Positions 1 through 59,661 of a DNA stretch of 64,000 nucleotides are shown here, one piece after another (the stretch's first letter is position 1; the number at the start of each line of letters is the position of its first letter). The translations under genes and the position numbers were made by a program. This stretch comes from an uncultured Alphaproteobacteria bacterium. Its GTDB lineage: Bacteria; Pseudomonadota; Alphaproteobacteria; Rs-D84. The notes below the pieces were generated by a model, which ran no database searches, was not told the DNA's origin, and was given only the letters and a program-made list of their open reading frames with translations. Location: contig CALXWX010000004.1 in assembly GCA_944392565.1 (NCBI GenBank), positions 1 to 64,000 of the forward strand, written 5' to 3'.

Positions 1-1
1 G

Positions 2-598
2 TCATTTTCTGCTTTCAAGAAATCGTGAAATTGTGGGCGGACTGACCCGAATAGTCCTGGCAATTTTGCGTTTAGAAATCCCTGCCGAATACATATCCAA
101 AATTAGATTTTCATAACCATCAATGATGTGACAAGTATTCTTTTGACCGTTTGGACGACCTAGTTTCACGCCGCGTAACTGTAATGCTGTTAATGCCTCT
201 TTGGTGCGTTGGGCGATAAGATTTCTCTCAATCTCGGCAGATAGTCCAAACGCAAAAGCTAAAACCTTGGATTGTATGGTGTCGCCTAATTCATAGCCGT
301 CTTTGACAGTATAAAGACGAGCTCCAATTTTCATACAATGTTCTAGTATTCGCATAATCATGAACATCTTTCGCCCGAGACGAGAAAGTTCACTGCATAT
401 TATAACATCGCCCGGGTTTAAATGTCGCAACACTCCGCCCAAAGCACGTTGTTCCGGCTCTTTGGTCCCTGAAATACCAGCATCTTCAATGTATTTATCA
501 ATGCAAAGCCCTAATGTGCTAGCTTTGGCATCTATGCCCAGTTTTTGATTTTCGCAATCTTGTTTGTTGGTCGAAACCCGAATATAACCATATATCAC
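2..598 (-). CDS. Serine recombinase (resolvase/invertase family)
   Basis: Small serine recombinase of 198 residues. The N-terminal catalytic domain opens MIYGYIRVS, with Ser9 as the expected nucleophile that attacks DNA at a crossover site. It continues with the family's ELSRLGR segment and the long helix ending in AEIERNLIAQRTKEAL. The last 40 or so residues look like a Hin-type helix-turn-helix (KRKIARTIRVSPPTISRFL). Translation starts at a GTG (598-596) preceded by an AAGGAG ribosome site; no closer ATG fits. A paralogue with the same layout lies at 47349-47984. Its role (resolution, inversion or integration) cannot be told, because no inverted crossover sites were recognised nearby. Complete gene; the stop is at positions 4-2. 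Confidence 0.9.
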   Translation of the reverse strand: MIYGYIRVSTNKQDCENQKLGIDAKASTLGLCIDKYIEDAGISGTKEPEQRALGGVLRHLNPGDVIICSELSRLGRKMFMIMRILEHCMKIGARLYTVKDGYELGDTIQSKVLAFAFGLSAEIERNLIAQRTKEALTALQLRGVKLGRPNGQKNTCHIIDGYENLILDMYSAGISKRKIARTIRVSPPTISRFLESRK

Positions 599-692
599 AA
601 TAAACTCCTTTGGTTTGTTGTTCTATATGCCGTAGATTTCGTTTTATTCAAGTAAATATAAGACAGTTGTATAAAAATTTGTTTGGAAATTT

Positions 693-711
693 TTTTTCTT
701 GACAAGAAAAA
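693..711. promoter_or_regulatory. 9-bp perfect palindrome over a -35 box (candidate operator)
   Basis: A 9-bp arm (TTTTTCTTG) is followed by one central A and its exact complement (CAAGAAAAA). It covers the TTGACA box at 699-704. A palindrome of this size over a promoter is a plausible site for a dimeric regulator such as the XRE protein encoded 450 bp downstream. That link is inference. Confidence 0.4.
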
Positions 712-725
712 TTATATCGTATAAC
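699..725 (+). promoter_or_regulatory. Candidate promoter of the retron transcript
   Basis: TTGACA at 699-704 and TATAAC at 720-725 are separated by 15 bp, slightly short for sigma-70. A start near 732 would place the whole structured non-coding stretch and the XRE and reverse-transcriptase genes on one transcript. Confidence 0.45.
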
Positions 726-726
726 T

Positions 727-1146
727 TCCCAATGACAAGGTCGAAGAAAAGGCATCTTTGTTCTGGGTTGCGCTTGTGCGTTGACCTGCGACTGGGATTA
801 CCAGTTGATTTAAAAAGTCTGTGCACGTGAATGTCGAATAACGATGTGCGTATACAGGCGCGATAGCTCGGATGCGATGCTATCGCGAAAATAGAGTAAG
901 GCGAAAGTTTTCCATCACCTTGCATCGTTAAACCTTTATCGGATGCCCCTGAGATATGACAAAAGGTTTGTATATCAAGATGGGATAAAGGAAGAAAAGA
1001 CGATGGCAAAACATAATTATGTTGCGAAAAATGGAAAATTGTTGCTTAGATTGTTTTGGTTAATTGTTAGGGTCATCTCATGGATACTAACAATTAACGA
1101 GTAACTAGTCTTCTCTATGTTTTTTTGAACCCAAGGGTGGGCACTA
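727..1146 (+). ncRNA. Structured non-coding stretch upstream of retron genes (candidate msr-msd)
   Basis: There is no convincing gene in this stretch of about 420 bp; an open frame on the minus strand (1009-644) has no family resemblance. Visible hairpins are ACTGG/CCAGT at 791-805 with a 5-nt loop, a 9-bp stem at 859-867/879-887 with an 11-nt loop, an 8-bp stem AAACCTTT/AAAGGTTT at 930-937/962-969, and a 12-bp stem at 1059-1070/1087-1098 with a 16-nt loop. Retrons encode their msr-msd RNA just upstream of the reverse transcriptase or of the partner gene, so this is the expected place. I could not identify the a1/a2 end repeats or the branching guanosine, so exact ends are unknown. Confidence 0.4.
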
Positions 1147-1485
1147 ATGATGATAAATGAAACATTGCGTTTAATACGAATAATACATGATTTATCAGTA
1201 ACAGATTTAGCAAAACAGTTAGGAATATCTGTTGGTCAACTATCAAAGATAGAGAATTGTAACGCTACACCAAGTTTAGAATTGATAGAGGAATACGCAT
1301 CTATATTTAAAACGACAAGTTCTGCCTTATTACTTTTTGCTGAGAATTTAGACGCAGAAAAAAAACGTAGCAAAATGAAAATATCTATACGCAACAAAAT
1401 GTTCAAATTGTTACAGATATTGGGTGATTATAAAGATGACAAAGAAAAAAGAAAAAATTATACTAGAGCAAAGCCCACTGTATAA
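1147..1485 (+). CDS. XRE-family HTH protein, retron partner
   Basis: 112-residue protein with an N-terminal Cro/C1-type helix-turn-helix at about residues 6-60 (LAKQLGISVGQLSKIENC is the recognition-helix region) and a basic, Lys-rich C-terminal tail of about 40 residues with no recognised domain. The start at 1147 is ATG-ATG; a second ATG at 1150 is equally possible and the ribosome site is weak (AAGGGTGGGC lies upstream). Its 3' end overlaps the reverse-transcriptase gene by 62 bp in another frame, which implies coupled translation. Retron operons with an HTH-family partner are a recognised class. Whether this protein is an effector, an autoregulator or both cannot be read from sequence. 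Confidence 0.8.
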   Translation: MMINETLRLIRIIHDLSVTDLAKQLGISVGQLSKIENCNATPSLELIEEYASIFKTTSSALLLFAENLDAEKKRSKMKISIRNKMFKLLQILGDYKDDKEKRKNYTRAKPTV

Positions 1486-2383
1486 TCTGTCTAGTAAAGC
1501 TAAGTTAGCACATTTGTTGGGTTGTCGCACACAGTTTTTACATAATTTTCGAAACAGCAGACGACAGTATAATATATTTAAAATCAAAAAAACTAATAGG
1601 ACGGGGAAAAGGCCCGTAGAAGATCCGAATGTATTTCTAAAAAGTATACATTCTAAATTTAAAAGTCTTATTTCAGAGATTCAAACGCCAGAATATTTGC
1701 ATTCTGGAACCAAAGGAAAAAGTCACATAACGAACGCAAGAAGCCATATAGATGCCAAATATTGTGTTACGTTGGATTTGCAATCTTTTTACCAAACTGC
1801 CACAAAAACTTTTTTGAGTTACATGTTCCGTACAGTATTTCAAATGCCTGACGATATTGCATACTGTATCTCGGATATCGCTACTATCCCATACAAACCA
1901 TCAGATGAACATAATTCATATTTTTCAACGGGATCCCCTTTGAGCCAGATTTTGATCTTCTGGTGTTATAAAAGTACGTTCGATTATATGGATAGATTGG
2001 CCAGAAAAAAGGGTATAATATTTACGCTGTACGTTGATGATATTACTTTTTCTTCCAATAGACAGATACCACAAAGTTTTATAAAGACCATTGAAAAACG
2101 ATTGAAAAAGGTGGGTTTGCATCTAAACAACAAAAAAACAAAGTGGTATTATCCCAAAGACTTTAAAATAGTAACGGGTTGTGCGATAAAGAATGGGGCT
2201 ATGAAAGCAAAAAATTGCAAACGAGAAGAAATAGTCGTCAAATTAAAGCAAGACAACAATTCTTGTCAAAAAATAGCGTCTATTGTCGGGAAAATTGCAT
2301 CGCAACAACAGATAGAACCGAATATCCTGAATGTCTCAAAACAACAATTGATATCTAAACGTAACAAGTTGATAAAAGGGTAA
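1424..2383 (+). CDS. Retron-type reverse transcriptase
   Basis: 319-residue reverse transcriptase (315 if the second ATG at 1436 is used). Visible motifs are the catalytic Asp of motif A in LDLQSFY (D118), GSPLSQIL of motif B, and YVDD of motif C at residues 203-206. Two hallmarks separate retron enzymes from group II intron and DGR enzymes: NAxxH (N104-H108, before motif A) and VTG (residues 250-252). Retron enzymes make a branched RNA-DNA (msDNA) from a cognate structured RNA and mostly act in phage defence. The protein is the size of a bare retron RT with no maturase or fused effector domain. It overlaps the XRE gene upstream and converges on 2390-2842. The sequence is more AT-rich than the core genes, consistent with transfer. 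Confidence 0.88.
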   Translation: MIIKMTKKKEKIILEQSPLYNLSSKAKLAHLLGCRTQFLHNFRNSRRQYNIFKIKKTNRTGKRPVEDPNVFLKSIHSKFKSLISEIQTPEYLHSGTKGKSHITNARSHIDAKYCVTLDLQSFYQTATKTFLSYMFRTVFQMPDDIAYCISDIATIPYKPSDEHNSYFSTGSPLSQILIFWCYKSTFDYMDRLARKKGIIFTLYVDDITFSSNRQIPQSFIKTIEKRLKKVGLHLNNKKTKWYYPKDFKIVTGCAIKNGAMKAKNCKREEIVVKLKQDNNSCQKIASIVGKIASQQQIEPNILNVSKQQLISKRNKLIKG

Positions 2384-2389
2384 TAATAT

Positions 2390-2842
2390 TTATTCATCTG
2401 AAGCTAAAAACACAAGCCCAAACCATTTACGTAATAGGTTCAGGTGGGCGCAGTAGGTCTTTGCGCTGGATTGTTCTTGCTTAAATTCAGCGGTTTCTTC
2501 GGCGGACAGACCAAGTTCCTTAATAAGTTTATTAGCCAGTCCTATAAGGTAAAAAACATTTCCTTGGGGACCTTTCAGGTCGATTACAATGCCAGTAGGA
2601 TACTTTGCGTTGAGTACAGTTATCATATCGTTATGCTGATTAGACTTGTGGAATGCGACCATTTGCACAAATTTGTTTTGAATCCGGCGGAGCAACCATG
2701 TCTGTCGGCAGGTAAGTTTACCACAATTTGTACGCCGTATAGCTGCTTCTAATTTGCACAACGAACGACAGGCAGCAAAGTAAAGCATGGCGAATTCTGT
2801 GCGGTTGTTGGGCGCAATATCATCAAAATGTGTGTATTTCAT
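2390..2842 (-). CDS. Phage/mobile-element hypothetical protein
   Basis: 150-residue protein, convergent with the reverse transcriptase (6-bp gap). The start at 2842 is chosen over an upstream ATG (2914) because AAAGGA lies at proper distance before it. The middle contains a LKGPQGNVFYLIGLA segment followed by a predicted helix. I recall this arrangement from small phage and plasmid proteins of unknown function, where a GNAF-like motif is followed by a charged helix. No catalytic motif, signal peptide or membrane segment is seen. A role in the element's biology is assumed only from location. Confidence 0.6.
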   Translation of the reverse strand: MKYTHFDDIAPNNRTEFAMLYFAACRSLCKLEAAIRRTNCGKLTCRQTWLLRRIQNKFVQMVAFHKSNQHNDMITVLNAKYPTGIVIDLKGPQGNVFYLIGLANKLIKELGLSAEETAEFKQEQSSAKTYCAHLNLLRKWFGLVFLASDE

Positions 2843-2995
2843 AGGCAATCCTTTTTGGGGTTGCTGTATTTGGCATAATCTTTCGAGCCTTGTCCAGTTA
2901 ATTGTACAAAACATTTATTTTGAAATTTTTTATGAAAAATATCGCATTTTATTGCTTTTTCTTGATTGTTATGGATTTTGCGGTATTGTTTCTGT

Positions 2996-3457
2996 ATGAA
3001 AAATAATAATCCAATTGTTATTCGTAAGTATTTTTTAGACGAATTGGGAAACGACATAAGGTGGACGAGAGCGAGTATTGAATCGCAAATTTGCTCTGCT
3101 GTTATTTTTGCCATTAAAATGAGTAAAGACGACAAAACATGGCAACATATGTTGACATTGTGGCCAAAGAATTGTTCTGTTCGATATGAATGGTTTGAAT
3201 CTGTTATTGCGGATATTAAATTGCCACAAAATATGGGTAATTTTTATAACACATATGATAATTTATACAATGTTTTGGTGCGCTGGTTAGATTCTGTAGA
3301 TAGTGTCACAGATCGAAAATTATTGATCTTACATTCATGTGGATTATCCATGAATAAAATCGGTAAAACTGTGGGCTTGTTACGTCAGACCGCCAGCCGT
3401 CGTTACACCAATGCAATAGATGCGTTGGTTTGGAATTTAAATCACTCTAAAAACTAG
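2996..3457 (+). CDS. DUF6362-like phage protein with C-terminal HTH
   Basis: 153-residue protein. The layout matches my memory of DUF6362 proteins in alphaproteobacterial prophages: an opening WTRASIESQI segment, a middle with WP and a tyrosine-rich stretch, a RWLDSVDSVTDRKLLILH segment and a terminal helix-turn-helix (GLSMNKIGKTVGLLRQTASRRY) like a sigma-factor region 4. The ATG at 2996 is preferred; a TTG at 2966 would add ten residues without support. No clear ribosome site is seen. Probably a DNA-binding regulator of the element, transcribed divergently from 2390-2842. Confidence 0.6.
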   Translation: MKNNNPIVIRKYFLDELGNDIRWTRASIESQICSAVIFAIKMSKDDKTWQHMLTLWPKNCSVRYEWFESVIADIKLPQNMGNFYNTYDNLYNVLVRWLDSVDSVTDRKLLILHSCGLSMNKIGKTVGLLRQTASRRYTNAIDALVWNLNHSKN

Positions 3458-3490
3458 CCCGTACACTTATATCGTAATTTGTCGCAAAAT

Positions 3491-3516
3491 CGTGCATTGT
3501 GCACGGTTATTTTTTG
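3491..3516 (+). terminator. Candidate terminator after the DUF6362-like gene
   Basis: CGTGCA/TGCACG 6-bp stem with a 3-nt loop (3491-3505), followed by a T-rich run (GTTATTTTTTG). It lies between 2996-3457 and the next gene and could alternatively be a regulator-binding palindrome. Confidence 0.4.
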
Positions 3517-3567
3517 TGCATATTTCTTTATATAAACCTATCAGAACACGAATCTAAAGGACAAATC

Positions 3568-3780
3568 ATGACGATAATATTATCCAAAGATGAATATATG
3601 ACCGAATGTGCATTGGCTGAAATGTGGGGTGTGAAACGCAATACTTTGCAAAAATGGCGTAGTGCCGGTGTTGGACCAAAATTTCTGAAACGTGTTGGTC
3701 GCATCGTATATCGAAAACAAGATATAGCCGAATTTGAGCAAAACAACATATTCCAACGCACTACAAGCGATAAACGATAG
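3568..3780 (+). CDS. AlpA-like small HTH regulator/excisionase
   Basis: 70-residue winged HTH protein of the MerR/AlpA/Xis kind. A tyrosine and acidic start is followed by LAEMWGVKRNTLQKWRSAGVGPKF and a wing ending GRIVYRKQDIAEFE, the usual helix_turn_helix_17 pattern. The start at 3568 follows a clean AAAGGA site; a longer frame from 3499 lacks one. In P4-like and PICI-type satellites such a gene switches on excision and replication genes, and here it heads a run of three co-directional genes (9-bp gap to the next). Function is inferred from domain and position. Confidence 0.8.
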   Translation: MTIILSKDEYMTECALAEMWGVKRNTLQKWRSAGVGPKFLKRVGRIVYRKQDIAEFEQNNIFQRTTSDKR

Positions 3781-3789
3781 GAAACGGCT

Positions 3790-4362
3790 ATGAAACGGCT
3801 GGCCAATCCAAAATGGGCACTTTTATTGGAAAATATATCACGTGAGGAACGCGGCGATATATTCATGGCGGTTTTGAAGTACCCGAATGCAGAATGTGCA
3901 AGTGCTGTGTGGCCATTTATAAAAGCCGAATTAGATGAAGACGATGTTAAATACAAAGCCAAATGCGAACGGTTGGCCACGAACAGATTGGCACGTTGGG
4001 GCGAACAGAATTCATCAAATATCAAACAGACATTATCAGATATCGGACAGAAATCAGACGCAATAGCAAATAGCAAGATCAACAATACAAGCACAATAAA
4101 ACAAAGCAAGGAAGCAAATGTTTTACTTCAAAAATTAGCCAGCTCTTTCAGCGCGTCGCGCGAACCTAAATATCGTATAGATAGCCAATTTTCATTGTCA
4201 AAAATTATTGAACGGAATCCAAATTTGTTTCCAATATTCAACGAGTTTACACCAGAACAAATTGAAAAAGGACAAATATCATTGAAACGCAAGTGCATGG
4301 GGCAGGATAAAACGATTGCGCAAATCATAGGATGGATAAGAAATGAAGGAAATTTCACATAA
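3790..4362 (+). CDS. DUF6291-like phage replication-type protein
   Basis: 190 residues. The N-terminal 60 or so residues (WALLLENISREERGDIFMAVLKY ... WPFIKAELDEDDVKYKAKCERLATNRLARW, given in two parts) match the family in which a DUF6291 domain precedes a variable linker, usually annotated as phage replisome-organiser-like. A low-complexity N/S/T/K linker (about residues 75-110) leads to a C-terminal domain without recognised motifs. An AGGA ribosome site lies before the ATG. It is placed between an AlpA-like gene and a terminase small-subunit gene, where satellites usually carry replication functions. The replication role is inference. Confidence 0.6.
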   Translation: MKRLANPKWALLLENISREERGDIFMAVLKYPNAECASAVWPFIKAELDEDDVKYKAKCERLATNRLARWGEQNSSNIKQTLSDIGQKSDAIANSKINNTSTIKQSKEANVLLQKLASSFSASREPKYRIDSQFSLSKIIERNPNLFPIFNEFTPEQIEKGQISLKRKCMGQDKTIAQIIGWIRNEGNFT

Positions 4363-4470
4363 AATATGGGTCCTGTGGCGACATTTTGCATTGAGGGTAA
4401 CGGCGACCGCGACACTTGCCTAGCGATAGAAATAAAAAACGGTGAACAGTGAACACTAAAAGGAGTGACT

Positions 4471-4944
4471 ATGTTATTGTCTAGAAGAGAATATGCAGCA
4501 CGTCGTGGAGTTGCAGTATCTGCTGTCCAAAAAGCCATCGATACAGGACGAATAACACTAACAGACGGAAAGATTGATCCCGAAAAGGCGGATAAAGAGT
4601 GGTTGGCAAATACTAACCCAGCCTATAATAGCACGCATCCAAACGACGGTCTTTCAACTTCTTATCATAAAAGCAAAGCAATGAAGTCGGCATATGAAGC
4701 AATGCTTAAAAAAATAGAATATGAAGAACGGGCAGGAAAGTTGATACAGTTAGTACAAGCGCAATCTGAGGCTTTTACAGCAGCCAGGGCCCCCAGAAAT
4801 TATTTATTGATGATCCCACGACGTATAGCACCACAGCTTGTCGGTCAGACAAATATTTCTAATATTGAGTATATCTTAACCAAGGAAATTAAGGCCGCAT
4901 TAACAGGCTTGTGCAACATATTAACAGGAAACGAAGGAGAATAA
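4471..4944 (+). CDS. Terminase small subunit, Nu1-like
   Basis: 157-residue protein with an N-terminal winged-helix DNA-recognition domain (LSRREYAARRGVAVSAVQKAI ... GRITLTDGKIDPEKADKEW, in two parts) followed by a long charged helix (YEAMLKKIEYEERAGKLI) and a C-terminal helical region. This is the layout of Nu1-type terminase small subunits that recognise the packaging site of phage DNA. The ATG at 4471 follows AAGGAG; a GTG at 4465 lies inside the ribosome site. No large subunit, portal or capsid gene follows. A stand-alone TerS is a signature of phage satellites that redirect a helper's packaging machinery. Confidence 0.75.
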   Translation: MLLSRREYAARRGVAVSAVQKAIDTGRITLTDGKIDPEKADKEWLANTNPAYNSTHPNDGLSTSYHKSKAMKSAYEAMLKKIEYEERAGKLIQLVQAQSEAFTAARAPRNYLLMIPRRIAPQLVGQTNISNIEYILTKEIKAALTGLCNILTGNEGE

Positions 4945-4946
4945 AA

Positions 4947-5021
4947 ATGCTAAAATATATAAAGCCCTTGATAACGTTATTCTCTGGACTTATGCGCTTT
5001 TCTTATCAATGTTGTGTGTAA
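4947..5021 (+). CDS. 24-residue micro-ORF between TerS and integrase
   Basis: ATG with a good GAAGGAG site a few bases upstream, coding MLKYIKPLITLFSGLMRF and a short Cys-containing tail. It starts 2 bp after the terminase gene and ends 14 bp before the preferred integrase start. The peptide is hydrophobic and basic at its N-terminus. It may be a leader peptide coupling integrase translation, or simply chance. No family is recognised. Confidence 0.35.
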   Translation: MLKYIKPLITLFSGLMRFSYQCCV

Positions 5022-5035
5022 ATAAAGGGATAAAT

Positions 5036-6247
5036 ATGCGAACGCTTAAATGTCAAAAGTTGGCTTTAACAACAGGATTTCTCAACAAATTGAAATCAGA
5101 CATTGATTTGCAAATAACAGATGCAGCATTGCCGGGTTTGCAATGCCGATATTCGGCTGCAACGGGGCGCAAAGTATTCTATTTGGGATATCGTGTTCGC
5201 GGTTCATATCAACAAAAGCATATAAGATTAGGATCGTTGGCGGAATTTAGCTTGAATGAAATTCGTACTCGGGCGATAAAGACAAAGCAAGATATCGCCA
5301 ACGGGTTGGACCCACAATCAGAACAGCGCATACGCATAAGGCAAAATGAAATGGCCGCAGCACGACGTAAACGAGTCCGTGAATTAACCGCAATATTTAT
5401 GGAAAAACACTGTCGTGAAAATAATCGGGCGAACACTTATCGATCAAACGAAGCGTTGATGCGTCTGTATATAAATCCATATCTTGGTGATAAACACATT
5501 GCAGATATTGATTTGGGTATAATCCAGGACATGTACGATAAAATCAAAAACACGAAAACCATTGCGATTGGTTTACATGTTATGCGATTGTTATCGACTT
5601 TTCTAAATTGGTGCGAAAAATACAATTATCGCACAATAAATTCAAATCCATGTCACTTAGTTCAAAAAGCTAAATCTCCAAAGATGAACCACACAATTCT
5701 GGATGTTGATGGATACAAACGGTTGTTTAGTGCATTGGATGAAGCGCTTTGTGTTGGGAGATATGCACCACAAACTGTCTTGGCAATAAAAACTCTTGCG
5801 CTGACGGGGTGTCGCAGCAGTGAAATAACAAACCTAGAACTGAATGAGTTAGATCTGAAAAACGGGTATCTGCGTTTAAACAAACGCAAAACAAATGCAT
5901 TTAATGTACCCCTAGGCGATCCAGCAATAGAAGTTATAAATCAAGCTTTGAGAATTTGCAAAAGTAACCGATATGTGTTTCATTCTCCAATTGACCATAC
6001 GCGTCCATTGACAGATTTGCGTAAAGCATTTTGGTGGGCATTAGATCGTGCGGGATTACCGCGGATGCGAATACATGACCTGCGTCATTCCTTTGCAACA
6101 CTGGCAACCAGCATGGGCGAAGATATACGAATATTAAAAGATGTACTGGGACACACAAAAATCACCACAACAGAAATATATACGCATGCGTCAAGTGTTG
6201 CCGCGCGTCGCACCGCAAATAATGTTGCAAGCAAGATAACGGGATAA
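5036..6247 (+). CDS. int: Tyrosine integrase (P4-type)
   Basis: 403-residue site-specific recombinase. The N-terminal 90 or so residues form a DUF4102-type arm-binding domain (FYLGYRVRGSYQQKHIRLG), followed by a SAM-like core-binding domain and the catalytic domain. Catalytic residues visible are Arg260 (TGCRSSEI), His347 and Arg350 (HDLRH), a GH pair in the DVLGHTK segment, and the nucleophile Tyr382 (TTEIYTH). The ATG at 5036 has AAAGGGAT before it; an earlier ATG at 5009 overlaps the micro-ORF and lacks a site. The gene ends 116 bp from a tRNA-Arg and about 400 bp from the proposed attachment point, as expected for tRNA-targeting integrases. Confidence 0.95.
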   Translation: MRTLKCQKLALTTGFLNKLKSDIDLQITDAALPGLQCRYSAATGRKVFYLGYRVRGSYQQKHIRLGSLAEFSLNEIRTRAIKTKQDIANGLDPQSEQRIRIRQNEMAAARRKRVRELTAIFMEKHCRENNRANTYRSNEALMRLYINPYLGDKHIADIDLGIIQDMYDKIKNTKTIAIGLHVMRLLSTFLNWCEKYNYRTINSNPCHLVQKAKSPKMNHTILDVDGYKRLFSALDEALCVGRYAPQTVLAIKTLALTGCRSSEITNLELNELDLKNGYLRLNKRKTNAFNVPLGDPAIEVINQALRICKSNRYVFHSPIDHTRPLTDLRKAFWWALDRAGLPRMRIHDLRHSFATLATSMGEDIRILKDVLGHTKITTTEIYTHASSVAARRTANNVASKITG

Positions 6248-6363
6248 ATTGGTATGCGCTGGTTTTGAAGTTTTGGGTGCCATGCATGACTCTCTTGCTC
6301 GGTACAAAATTCTGTGCCGACCGTGGGCAAAAATAAAAATCGGGATAAACCCGATTTAAATTT

Positions 6364-6440
6364 TGGCGTGCCCAGCAGGATTCGAACCTGCAACCTATTG
6401 CTTAGAAGGCAATTGCTCTATCCGGTTGAGCCATGGGCAC
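6364..6440 (-). tRNA. tRNA-Arg(UCU), intact, element-borne
   Basis: 77-nt cloverleaf read on the minus strand: acceptor GTGCCCA/TGGGCAC, D-arm GCTC/GAGC, anticodon stem ATTGC/GCAAT with loop CTTCTAA (anticodon TCT), T-arm GCAGG/CCTGC with TTCGAAT, discriminator G and encoded CCA. It decodes AGA and possibly AGG. It lies between the integrase and the remnant of another tRNA-Arg with the same anticodon, so it probably arrived with the element and replaces the broken host copy. Confidence 0.93.
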
Positions 6441-6643
6441 TTAACTGTTTTTATGGAATTTGACGCGAACGTCATCCAATTCCTATGTAACATTCTATGT
6501 AGCAAATATGTAACATTTTACATCAATTTGCGTACATTTCAATCAATCTGTATCCGGTTTTATACAGAACTGATTTTTGCGCACATCCACACAAATCCAG
6601 CATTTATGCATTCAAATCCAAATCTATCCATAAAAATTACGGA
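6441..6643. other. AT-rich stretch at the element end (arm-site candidate)
   Basis: There is no gene in these 200 bp. The sequence is AT-rich, and its right end has a small inverted pair ATCC/GGAT around 6626-6643 directly beside the tRNA remnant. Integrase arm-binding sites would be expected here but cannot be assigned by eye. With 6686-6790 it forms a gap of about 350 bp containing only the tRNA remnant and a terminator. Confidence 0.5.
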
Positions 6644-6685
6644 TGATTAGAAATCCGATGCTCTATCCAGCTGAGCTATGGGCGC
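6644..6685 (-). pseudogene. 5' half of a tRNA-Arg(UCU) gene, disrupted (attachment remnant)
   Basis: Read on the minus strand from 6685, the sequence has acceptor 5' strand GCGCCCA, D-arm GCTC/GAGC, 27-31 TCGGA and anticodon loop TTTCTAA (TCT). After two bases of the 3' anticodon stem it no longer pairs, and there is no variable loop, T-arm or acceptor 3' strand. The break therefore falls at the anticodon stem-loop, a classic crossover position for tyrosine integrases. It marks the right junction of the element; the missing 3' half should be at the left end outside this window. Confidence 0.75.
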
Positions 6686-6790: not shown

Positions 6791-7423
6791 TTAATCATCT
6801 GCTAATTTTTTCAATCGCAAAATTTCAATATACATATAAACATCTGCCGCCGCATACAATAACAATACCGCCGCCAAATAATAAACCATGACAACCGCAC
6901 CCGCCATTGGATACACCATCAAGAATATTGCCAGCGCAATCAGTATAACAGACATTATTAAATCAAACCAATAATGTCCAAATTTTGCCCGTATCATATT
7001 GACAGAAAATATCAATGCACGCAACGATTTGAACAAGAACAACACAATAAATATGTAAATCAAACTGATTATCGAACCAACCGGATATATACAGAACAAT
7101 ACCCCCAATACGATATTAACCAAACCAAATAAAACATCAACCCATCCGCCACCAACATCACGCGACACAACAAATCCAGCAATCGTACGATACAAACCGA
7201 ACAAAATTAATGCAATTCCAATAACCAGCGTCAGCGCGGTCAGAATCGCAACCGGCTTTACCACCATCAATATCGCCGCGATACCAAACAACAGTGCCTC
7301 GCATATCAATAACGGCGCACTTTTGTTATACAATCGTTTCACCGATGCAGCAATCGGATTTACACGCGCCTGACGCGCCTTTGAATTTTTTACATCAGAT
7401 TTTGCATTTTTTGCTTTTGGCAT
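6791..7423 (-). CDS. HdeD/DUF308-family membrane protein
   Basis: 210 residues. A basic N-terminal tail of about 35 residues (Lys/Arg/Ala-rich) is followed by six hydrophobic helices spaced as in the DUF308 repeat of HdeD-like inner-membrane proteins, in two groups of three with short polar turns (RTIAGF and MIRAKF between them). No catalytic residues are evident. HdeD in E. coli is linked to acid stress; that role is not shown here. Single gene with its own terminator 25 bp downstream. The 250 bp upstream of it hold no recognisable gene. Confidence 0.75.
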   Translation of the reverse strand: MPKAKNAKSDVKNSKARQARVNPIAASVKRLYNKSAPLLICEALLFGIAAILMVVKPVAILTALTLVIGIALILFGLYRTIAGFVVSRDVGGGWVDVLFGLVNIVLGVLFCIYPVGSIISLIYIFIVLFLFKSLRALIFSVNMIRAKFGHYWFDLIMSVILIALAIFLMVYPMAGAVVMVYYLAAVLLLYAAADVYMYIEILRLKKLADD

Positions 7424-59576: not shown

Positions 59577-59661
59577 GCGGGCATGGCGAAACGGCAGACG
59601 CACAGCACTAAGGATGCTGTGGATAAAATCCATGGGGGTTCGAATCCCCCTGCCCGCACCA
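59577..59661 (+). tRNA. tRNA-Leu(AAG)
   Basis: 85 nt. Acceptor GCGGGCA/TGCCCGC fully paired, D-stem GCG/CGC, anticodon stem CAGCA/TGCTG around loop CTAAGGA (anticodon AAG with T33), long variable arm GGAT/ATCC, T-arm GGGGG/CCCCC with TTCGAAT, discriminator A, encoded CCA. The anticodon is unusual for bacteria, which normally use GAG; an A at position 34 would need TadA to become inosine for wider reading. Confidence 0.9.

Follow-up and report, generated by a model that had tools for sequence, protein, structure and literature searches.

The 64,000-nucleotide stretch analysed here (the window; contig CALXWX010000004.1 of assembly GCA_944392565.1) carries the right part of a mobile element that is inserted in the host tRNA-Arg(UCU) gene. 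We firmly believe that integration destroys this host gene and that the element compensates with a rescue copy of its own, in which the anticodon stem is altered and the integrase core is absent. The structure can be read from the sequence, and we infer from it that the copy is expressed and essential. The source genome (G000) is 939 kb, 99% complete and assembled in seven contigs, and position 1 of the window is also the first base of its contig C4. The features of the locus are listed below.

6645..6685, minus strand: 5' part of the host tRNA-Arg(UCU) (acceptor 5' strand, D-arm and anticodon loop), the remnant at the right junction (attR), 41 nt, with the same sequence as the 5' part of the intact G020 gene
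6645..6655, minus strand: 11-bp core GATTTCTAATC, which spans the anticodon loop and is the only sequence common to the left (attL) and right junctions
6441..6644, minus strand: right arm, from the core to the replacement tRNA, defined by alignment of junctions
6364..6440, minus strand: intact element-borne replacement tRNA-Arg(UCU) with the anticodon stem GCC/GGC and without the integrase core (ARAGORN and Rfam, 73.1 bits)
6791..7423, minus strand: host flank, a DUF308 membrane protein that neighbours the tRNA-Arg(UCU) locus in element-free relatives (protein annotation and the loci of relatives)

A sequence-only reading had proposed that a host tRNA-Arg is broken at the anticodon loop and had placed the remnant at 6644-6685. 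The break and the remnant were both borne out, and only the start had to be moved, to 6645. The remnant consists of GCGCCCATAGCTCAGCTGGATAGAGCATCG followed by GATTTCTAATC and ends in this core. The missing 3' half, expected at the left end of the element, turned up in the same genome close to where contig C2 ends (C2:183255-183300); searching for it by pattern gave a match at C2:183258-183278, 2.5 kb from that contig end. The two halves overlap in exactly GATTTCTAATC. Joined there, they form a perfect 77-nt tRNA-Arg(UCU) fold, which is the intact tRNA of the congeneric G020 over 77 nt, letter for letter. In six genomes tested, ARAGORN detected no tRNA in either junction by itself, whereas the joined halves scored as tRNA-Arg(UCU) in all six tested pairs.

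Element-free relatives were expected to hold an uninterrupted tRNA-Arg at the same locus, and they do: the gene lies between a tspO-ftsB-dus-HTH-uvrA block and the DUF308 gene. In G000, this block sits at the C2 end and DUF308 in the window (6791-7423), with order and orientation as expected. Because the window begins where contig C4 does, the left end of the element lies on contig C2. From the gene order in relatives, and from the whole element lying on a single contig in three other genomes (G083, G014 and G134), we infer that the end of C2 precedes the start of C4.

The second claim of that reading, a complete tRNA-Arg(UCU) of different sequence about 200 bp away beside the integrase, also agreed with our data. 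The gene at 6364-6440 matches the broken host tRNA in 61/77 positions. In the anticodon region it reads GCC TTCTAA GC, against GAT TTCTAA TC in the host gene, and GCCTTCTAAGC stands at the place of the core GATTTCTAATC, with three changes. Lacking the core, the replacement should escape the element's own integrase. It is the sole intact UCU tRNA in G000, a point that the same reading had put up for checking (42 tRNA hits in the genome; the other Arg anticodons are ACG and CCG), and also in G083, G012, G134, G006 and G177. The replacement tRNA was present in each of the 13 junctions with a complete region, and the distance from the first core base to it was 214-216 nt in all 13 genomes allowing measurement.

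The following signals surround the replacement tRNA.

6484..6516, minus strand: three direct repeats, ATGTTACATA / TTGCTACATA / ATGTTACATA, predicted from the letters to be probable arm-type integrase sites
6515..6542, minus strand: promoter-like TTGAAA-16-TAAAAT before the replacement tRNA, conserved across elements
6337..6357, minus strand: terminator-like hairpin AAATCGGGTTTATCCCGATTT with a T tract, behind the replacement tRNA

Two copies of the arm repeat also occur near the left end of the element on contig C2. The promoter-like site reads TTGAAT-16-TATAAT in other elements and overlaps the probable integrase arm sites. A promoter scan gave 2 sites against a shuffle mean of 2.0, which is not significant, and it is the conservation across elements that points to a promoter. 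The replacement tRNA is codirectional with the upstream host tRNA promoter, so both promoters could feed it. AGA occurs at 2.7 and AGG at 0.4 per 1000 codons in host genes (eleven counted); in six element genes AGA reaches 11.1 per 1000, about four times the host value. Since AGA is used in host genes and would be read only by the replacement tRNA, rescue is very likely needed.

On these grounds, we propose that the tyrosine integrase recombines the 11-bp core of the attP site (GATTTCTAATC) with the identical stretch that the host tRNA-Arg(UCU) has in its anticodon arm. Because attP carries no tRNA 3' half, integration splits the gene and both junctions are nonfunctional, as can be read from the junctions themselves. 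The element's complete tRNA-Arg(UCU), which lies next to the integrase at 215 nt from the core, would take over the decoding of AGA and AGG, and the integrant would survive. With precise excision, the host gene should be restored and the rescue gene lost at the same time. Imprecise loss would be lethal unless the replacement tRNA remains, which should stabilise the element; as a random deletion would kill the cell, the element would be hard to lose. After decay of the element in some relatives, the replacement tRNA appears to persist as a resident gene.

The right junction (host 5' half, core, then RTYCGYAATTYTTATGGATAG) was found in 15 of the 156 genomes of the genus, the window's included, and this recurrence excludes chance. 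The left junction consists of TTCAGAC, the core and the host 3' half, and it is paired with the right one in ten genomes (G000, G012, G083, G014, G006, G134, G126, G129, G160 and G091), with both on a single contig in G083, G014 and G134. Three types of host tRNA have been struck, and all of them hold the core: type A (GCGCCC.TAGC.CAGCTGG), type B (GCGCCCATGGCTCAAYTGG) and type C (GC.CCCGTAGCACAATGG). In the UvrA tree, carriers adjoin non-carriers several times. The carrier G129 stands beside G028, which has an intact gene (100% bootstrap), the carrier G177 beside the C2 locus of G136, also intact (99% bootstrap), and G134 beside G097, whose resident tRNA is of the replacement type. The intact genes in the element-free sisters of G129 and G177 indicate that insertion happened repeatedly. 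Integrase relatives of at least 88% identity were present in 12 further genomes. G000, G012 and G177 share integrases of 98-99% identity, whereas the UvrA proteins of the latter two are 95 and 91% identical to that of G000; the closer similarity of the integrases suggests horizontal transfer. The integrase tree is too shallow to separate most of its branches. Two genomes were excluded as evidence for coexistence: G136 has two versions of the locus on contigs with differing UvrA (94 and 91%) and looks like a mix of two strains, and in G109 contamination amounts to 7% and the 5' half is truncated.

Several observations weigh against the proposed disruption and rescue. The element of the window is split between two contigs that are presumed to join. 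AGA and AGG are rare in host genes, which makes essentiality likely rather than proven. G014 has a second intact UCU tRNA (C39), so rescue is not strictly needed there. In G133 and G144, element sequence lies beside an intact host-type tRNA of type A, with no replacement tRNA; these two may represent a variant that rebuilds the tRNA, or a repair by recombination. They are also what speaks for canonical integration in general, in which the 3' half in attP rebuilds the gene and the neighbouring complete tRNA is a passenger: on the element side they show an intact host-type tRNA followed by element-like terminator sequence, and rebuilding is the usual solution of tRNA integrases (PMC4383910). Elsewhere the core is followed by the element arm and by no tRNA 3' half in 15/15 right junctions, and ARAGORN found no tRNA at the six junctions tested, so that attP was not found to rebuild the gene. 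We consider canonical rebuilding very improbable for this element. What was found instead corresponds to tRNA-dependent integration: a tyrosine integrase at a host tRNA gene, a core of 11 bp, and no other tRNA of the isotype in G000.

A use of the tRNA chiefly for the element's own translation, rich in AGA/AGG, or for evading tRNA-cutting defences, with host rescue as a by-product, deserves slightly more credit but is still improbable. The AGA frequencies given above and an anticodon stem unlike the host's are in its favour, but the replacement is the sole intact UCU tRNA in most carriers, and own use is compatible with rescue rather than exclusive of it. The remaining two explanations have next to no chance of being right. 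If the remnant were an old pseudogene, that is, a decayed tRNA-Arg duplicate unrelated to the element, G176 would fit, as no integrase lies near its 5' half and replacement tRNA. The sequence-only reading had named such an arrangement without the element as decisive against its own proposal, and the resemblance of G176 is superficial, for it retains the right arm of a decayed insertion. In ten genomes the displaced 3' half is found at the opposite end of the element, with three host alleles and a constant arm and spacing, and at the same locus the gene is intact in element-free sisters; the paired halves led us to reject the pseudogene. Nor do the halves seem to be still in use as a trans-spliced split tRNA or an intron-containing tRNA, although split tRNA genes occur in Archaea, with mobile-element insertion as a proposed origin (PMC3293823). 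The anticodon loop is a classic position of introns. The insert, however, is 13-18 kb long and holds genes, Rfam detected no group I intron in the window or the elements, and the complete replacement tRNA makes splicing unnecessary. No tRNA-splicing endonuclease is known from bacteria, and this explanation was rejected as well.

Further genomes bear on what becomes of the replacement tRNA in the proposed disruption and rescue. In G086, the promoter immediately before it hardly differs from the one that the sister G070 has for its type A gene. The tRNA is followed by element-like terminator sequence, by CAGGGCATGCCA, which is a scar left from the host 3' half, and finally by the host terminator. 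G176 has the 5' half, the arm and the replacement tRNA alone between tspO and DUF308, and since it keeps the 215-nt right arm of the element, it represents a decayed insertion. In G088, the replacement tRNA is fused to a host-type promoter, the left junction is on another contig, and the integrase gene has two stops. The replacement was the sole UCU tRNA found in G086 and G176. All three genomes fit a permanent displacement of the host allele. In G094, G097, G105, G118, G128, G132 and others, the replacement tRNA is an ordinary resident gene with its own promoter, and these lineages could be donors or old recipients. We lean slightly towards the wider view that disruption and rescue with an integrase-immune copy leads, upon decay of the element, to the permanent displacement of the host allele by the rescue copy and to genus-wide turnover of an essential tRNA allele.

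Some other observations were made around the locus. Between tspO and DUF308 (L212-L215, L228 and L237), the orientation of the UCU tRNA relative to its conserved neighbours is inverted between lineages. Just outside the left junction (L078 6889-7273, G000:C2) lies a 164-bp tandem repeat of 2.3 copies, each copy of which includes some 19 nt from the 3' tail of tRNA-Arg; tail fragments like these also occur behind the UCU tRNA in G133, G176, G128 and G118. We take these repeats to be reminiscent of the tyrT repeats of E. coli.

The element genes in the window are as follows.

1..6655, no strand assigned: right part of the element; the left 2.5 kb are on contig C2 (C2:183290-185820)
5009..6247, plus strand: tyrosine integrase (domain matches Arm-DNA-bind_3, Phage_int_SAM_3 and Phage_integrase)
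4465..4944, plus strand: small terminase subunit-like protein, a conserved core gene (PHROG phrog_57, E=5.6e-25)
3790..4362, plus strand: DUF6291 protein, a conserved core gene (domain match and relatives)
2966..3457, plus strand: DUF6362-like protein, a conserved core gene (below the Pfam cut-off)
1424..2383, plus strand: reverse transcriptase resembling the retron type VI enzyme, cargo (protein comparison)
2..598, minus strand: serine resolvase/invertase, conserved, between the core module and the cargo (protein comparison and relatives)

The constant set comprises the serine resolvase, the DUF6362-like, DUF6291 and small-terminase-like proteins and the tyrosine integrase, with the replacement tRNA in most carriers. 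The elements are 13-18 kb long (13.2 kb in G083, 17.7 kb in G014 and 14.6 kb in G134, each whole on one contig). The left part varies. G083 carries a HaeIII-like restriction-modification pair, a Fic protein and a PHP/ATPase protein, G014 a type IIG-like restriction system, and G000 the retron-VI-like reverse transcriptase together with an AbiL-like pair on C2. Among the proteins scanned, which did not cover every open reading frame, no capsid, portal or tail gene was recognised and a large terminase was not seen; Pfam and PHROGs recognised no primase or repressor in the same proteins. The viral contig collection held no relative of the integrase or of the att junctions, and no free phage or circular form was found there. 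An integrase with a small terminase gene (terS), a size of 10-20 kb and no capsid gene found (not every open reading frame scanned) is the combination of PICI-like elements, and the carrier was not found to be a temperate phage as in tRNA-dependent lysogeny. Judged by its gene content, the element is probably phage-satellite-like, with an exchangeable site for anti-phage cargo. Complete elements have a second tyrosine recombinase-like protein beside the resolvase (L198 10011-11222 and L199 12140-13351); the part of the element in the window did not show it, and has the reverse transcriptase in the corresponding region. The element remnant of G144 holds a complete valyl-tRNA synthetase-like gene between the intact tRNA-Arg and the left junction (L228 7096-9687).

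Other tRNA genes were also noted. A tRNA-Asn(GUU) 3' half that starts at the anticodon arm (L046 1965-2011; G000:C5:56964-57010) has a second tyrosine integrase (L046 2758-3945) at a distance of 0.8 kb, and an intact tRNA-Asn is on contig C7; this locus is probably a second element in the anticodon arm of a tRNA. Distant integrases of the same family adjoin intact tRNA-Asn(GUU) in L182, L183, L190, L191, L193 and L194, and tRNA-Gln(CUG) in L181. The window also holds, at 59577-59661, a tRNA-Leu with the anticodon AAG, unusual for bacteria, and no GAG leucine tRNA was found in the genome.

The destroy-and-substitute strategy is thus not confined to complete phages, but is also used by a small defence island in many species of an uncultured gut lineage. 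It offers a concrete route for the replacement of essential tRNA genes by foreign alleles, and such elements would escape tools that recognise islands by a rebuilt tRNA.

The sequence-only reading had taken a full replacement gene for a different solution from the usual one. This is right, but the solution is not new, as it has been described as tRNA-dependent lysogeny and shown experimentally for the mycobacteriophages Fionnbharth (K4), cluster L and Gaia (Guerrero-Bustamante and Hatfull 2024, PMC10865867). Their cores are 8-10 bp, and a phage tRNA of the same isotype is required for lysogens (PMC10865867). There too, canonical relatives that rebuild the tRNA exist. The mycobacteriophages are complete temperate phages of Actinobacteria that use tRNA-Lys or tRNA-Leu, and were studied by genetics, whereas the carrier here is a 13-18 kb element of gut Alphaproteobacteria in tRNA-Arg(UCU), with no capsid gene found, the tRNA directly by the attachment site, and traces of a foreign tRNA becoming a resident gene. 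In phage-related sequences of Sinorhizobium meliloti, also one of the Alphaproteobacteria, an inactivated tRNA gene is replaced by a foreign-looking, element-borne isoacceptor that resembles those of other Alphaproteobacteria; that case concerns one species, and a satellite-like carrier, several host alleles or domestication are not described in the accessible text of PMC11476347. Integration of the Lactobacillus johnsonii prophage Lj965 fails to rebuild the tRNA, and the cognate tRNA is on the prophage (cited in PMC10865867); this is a Firmicute prophage, and no function test is reported for it there. PICI-like and other satellites with anti-phage cargo (P4-like: PMC9122126) are likewise small, with an integrase, a small-terminase-like gene, no capsid gene found and exchangeable defence cargo; they differ in that no primase or master repressor was identified here in the proteins scanned. 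While the principle was already known, the satellite-like defence carrier, the three host alleles and the foreign tRNA turned resident are new, and we found no earlier description in the literature of such host diversity or of traces of permanent allele replacement.
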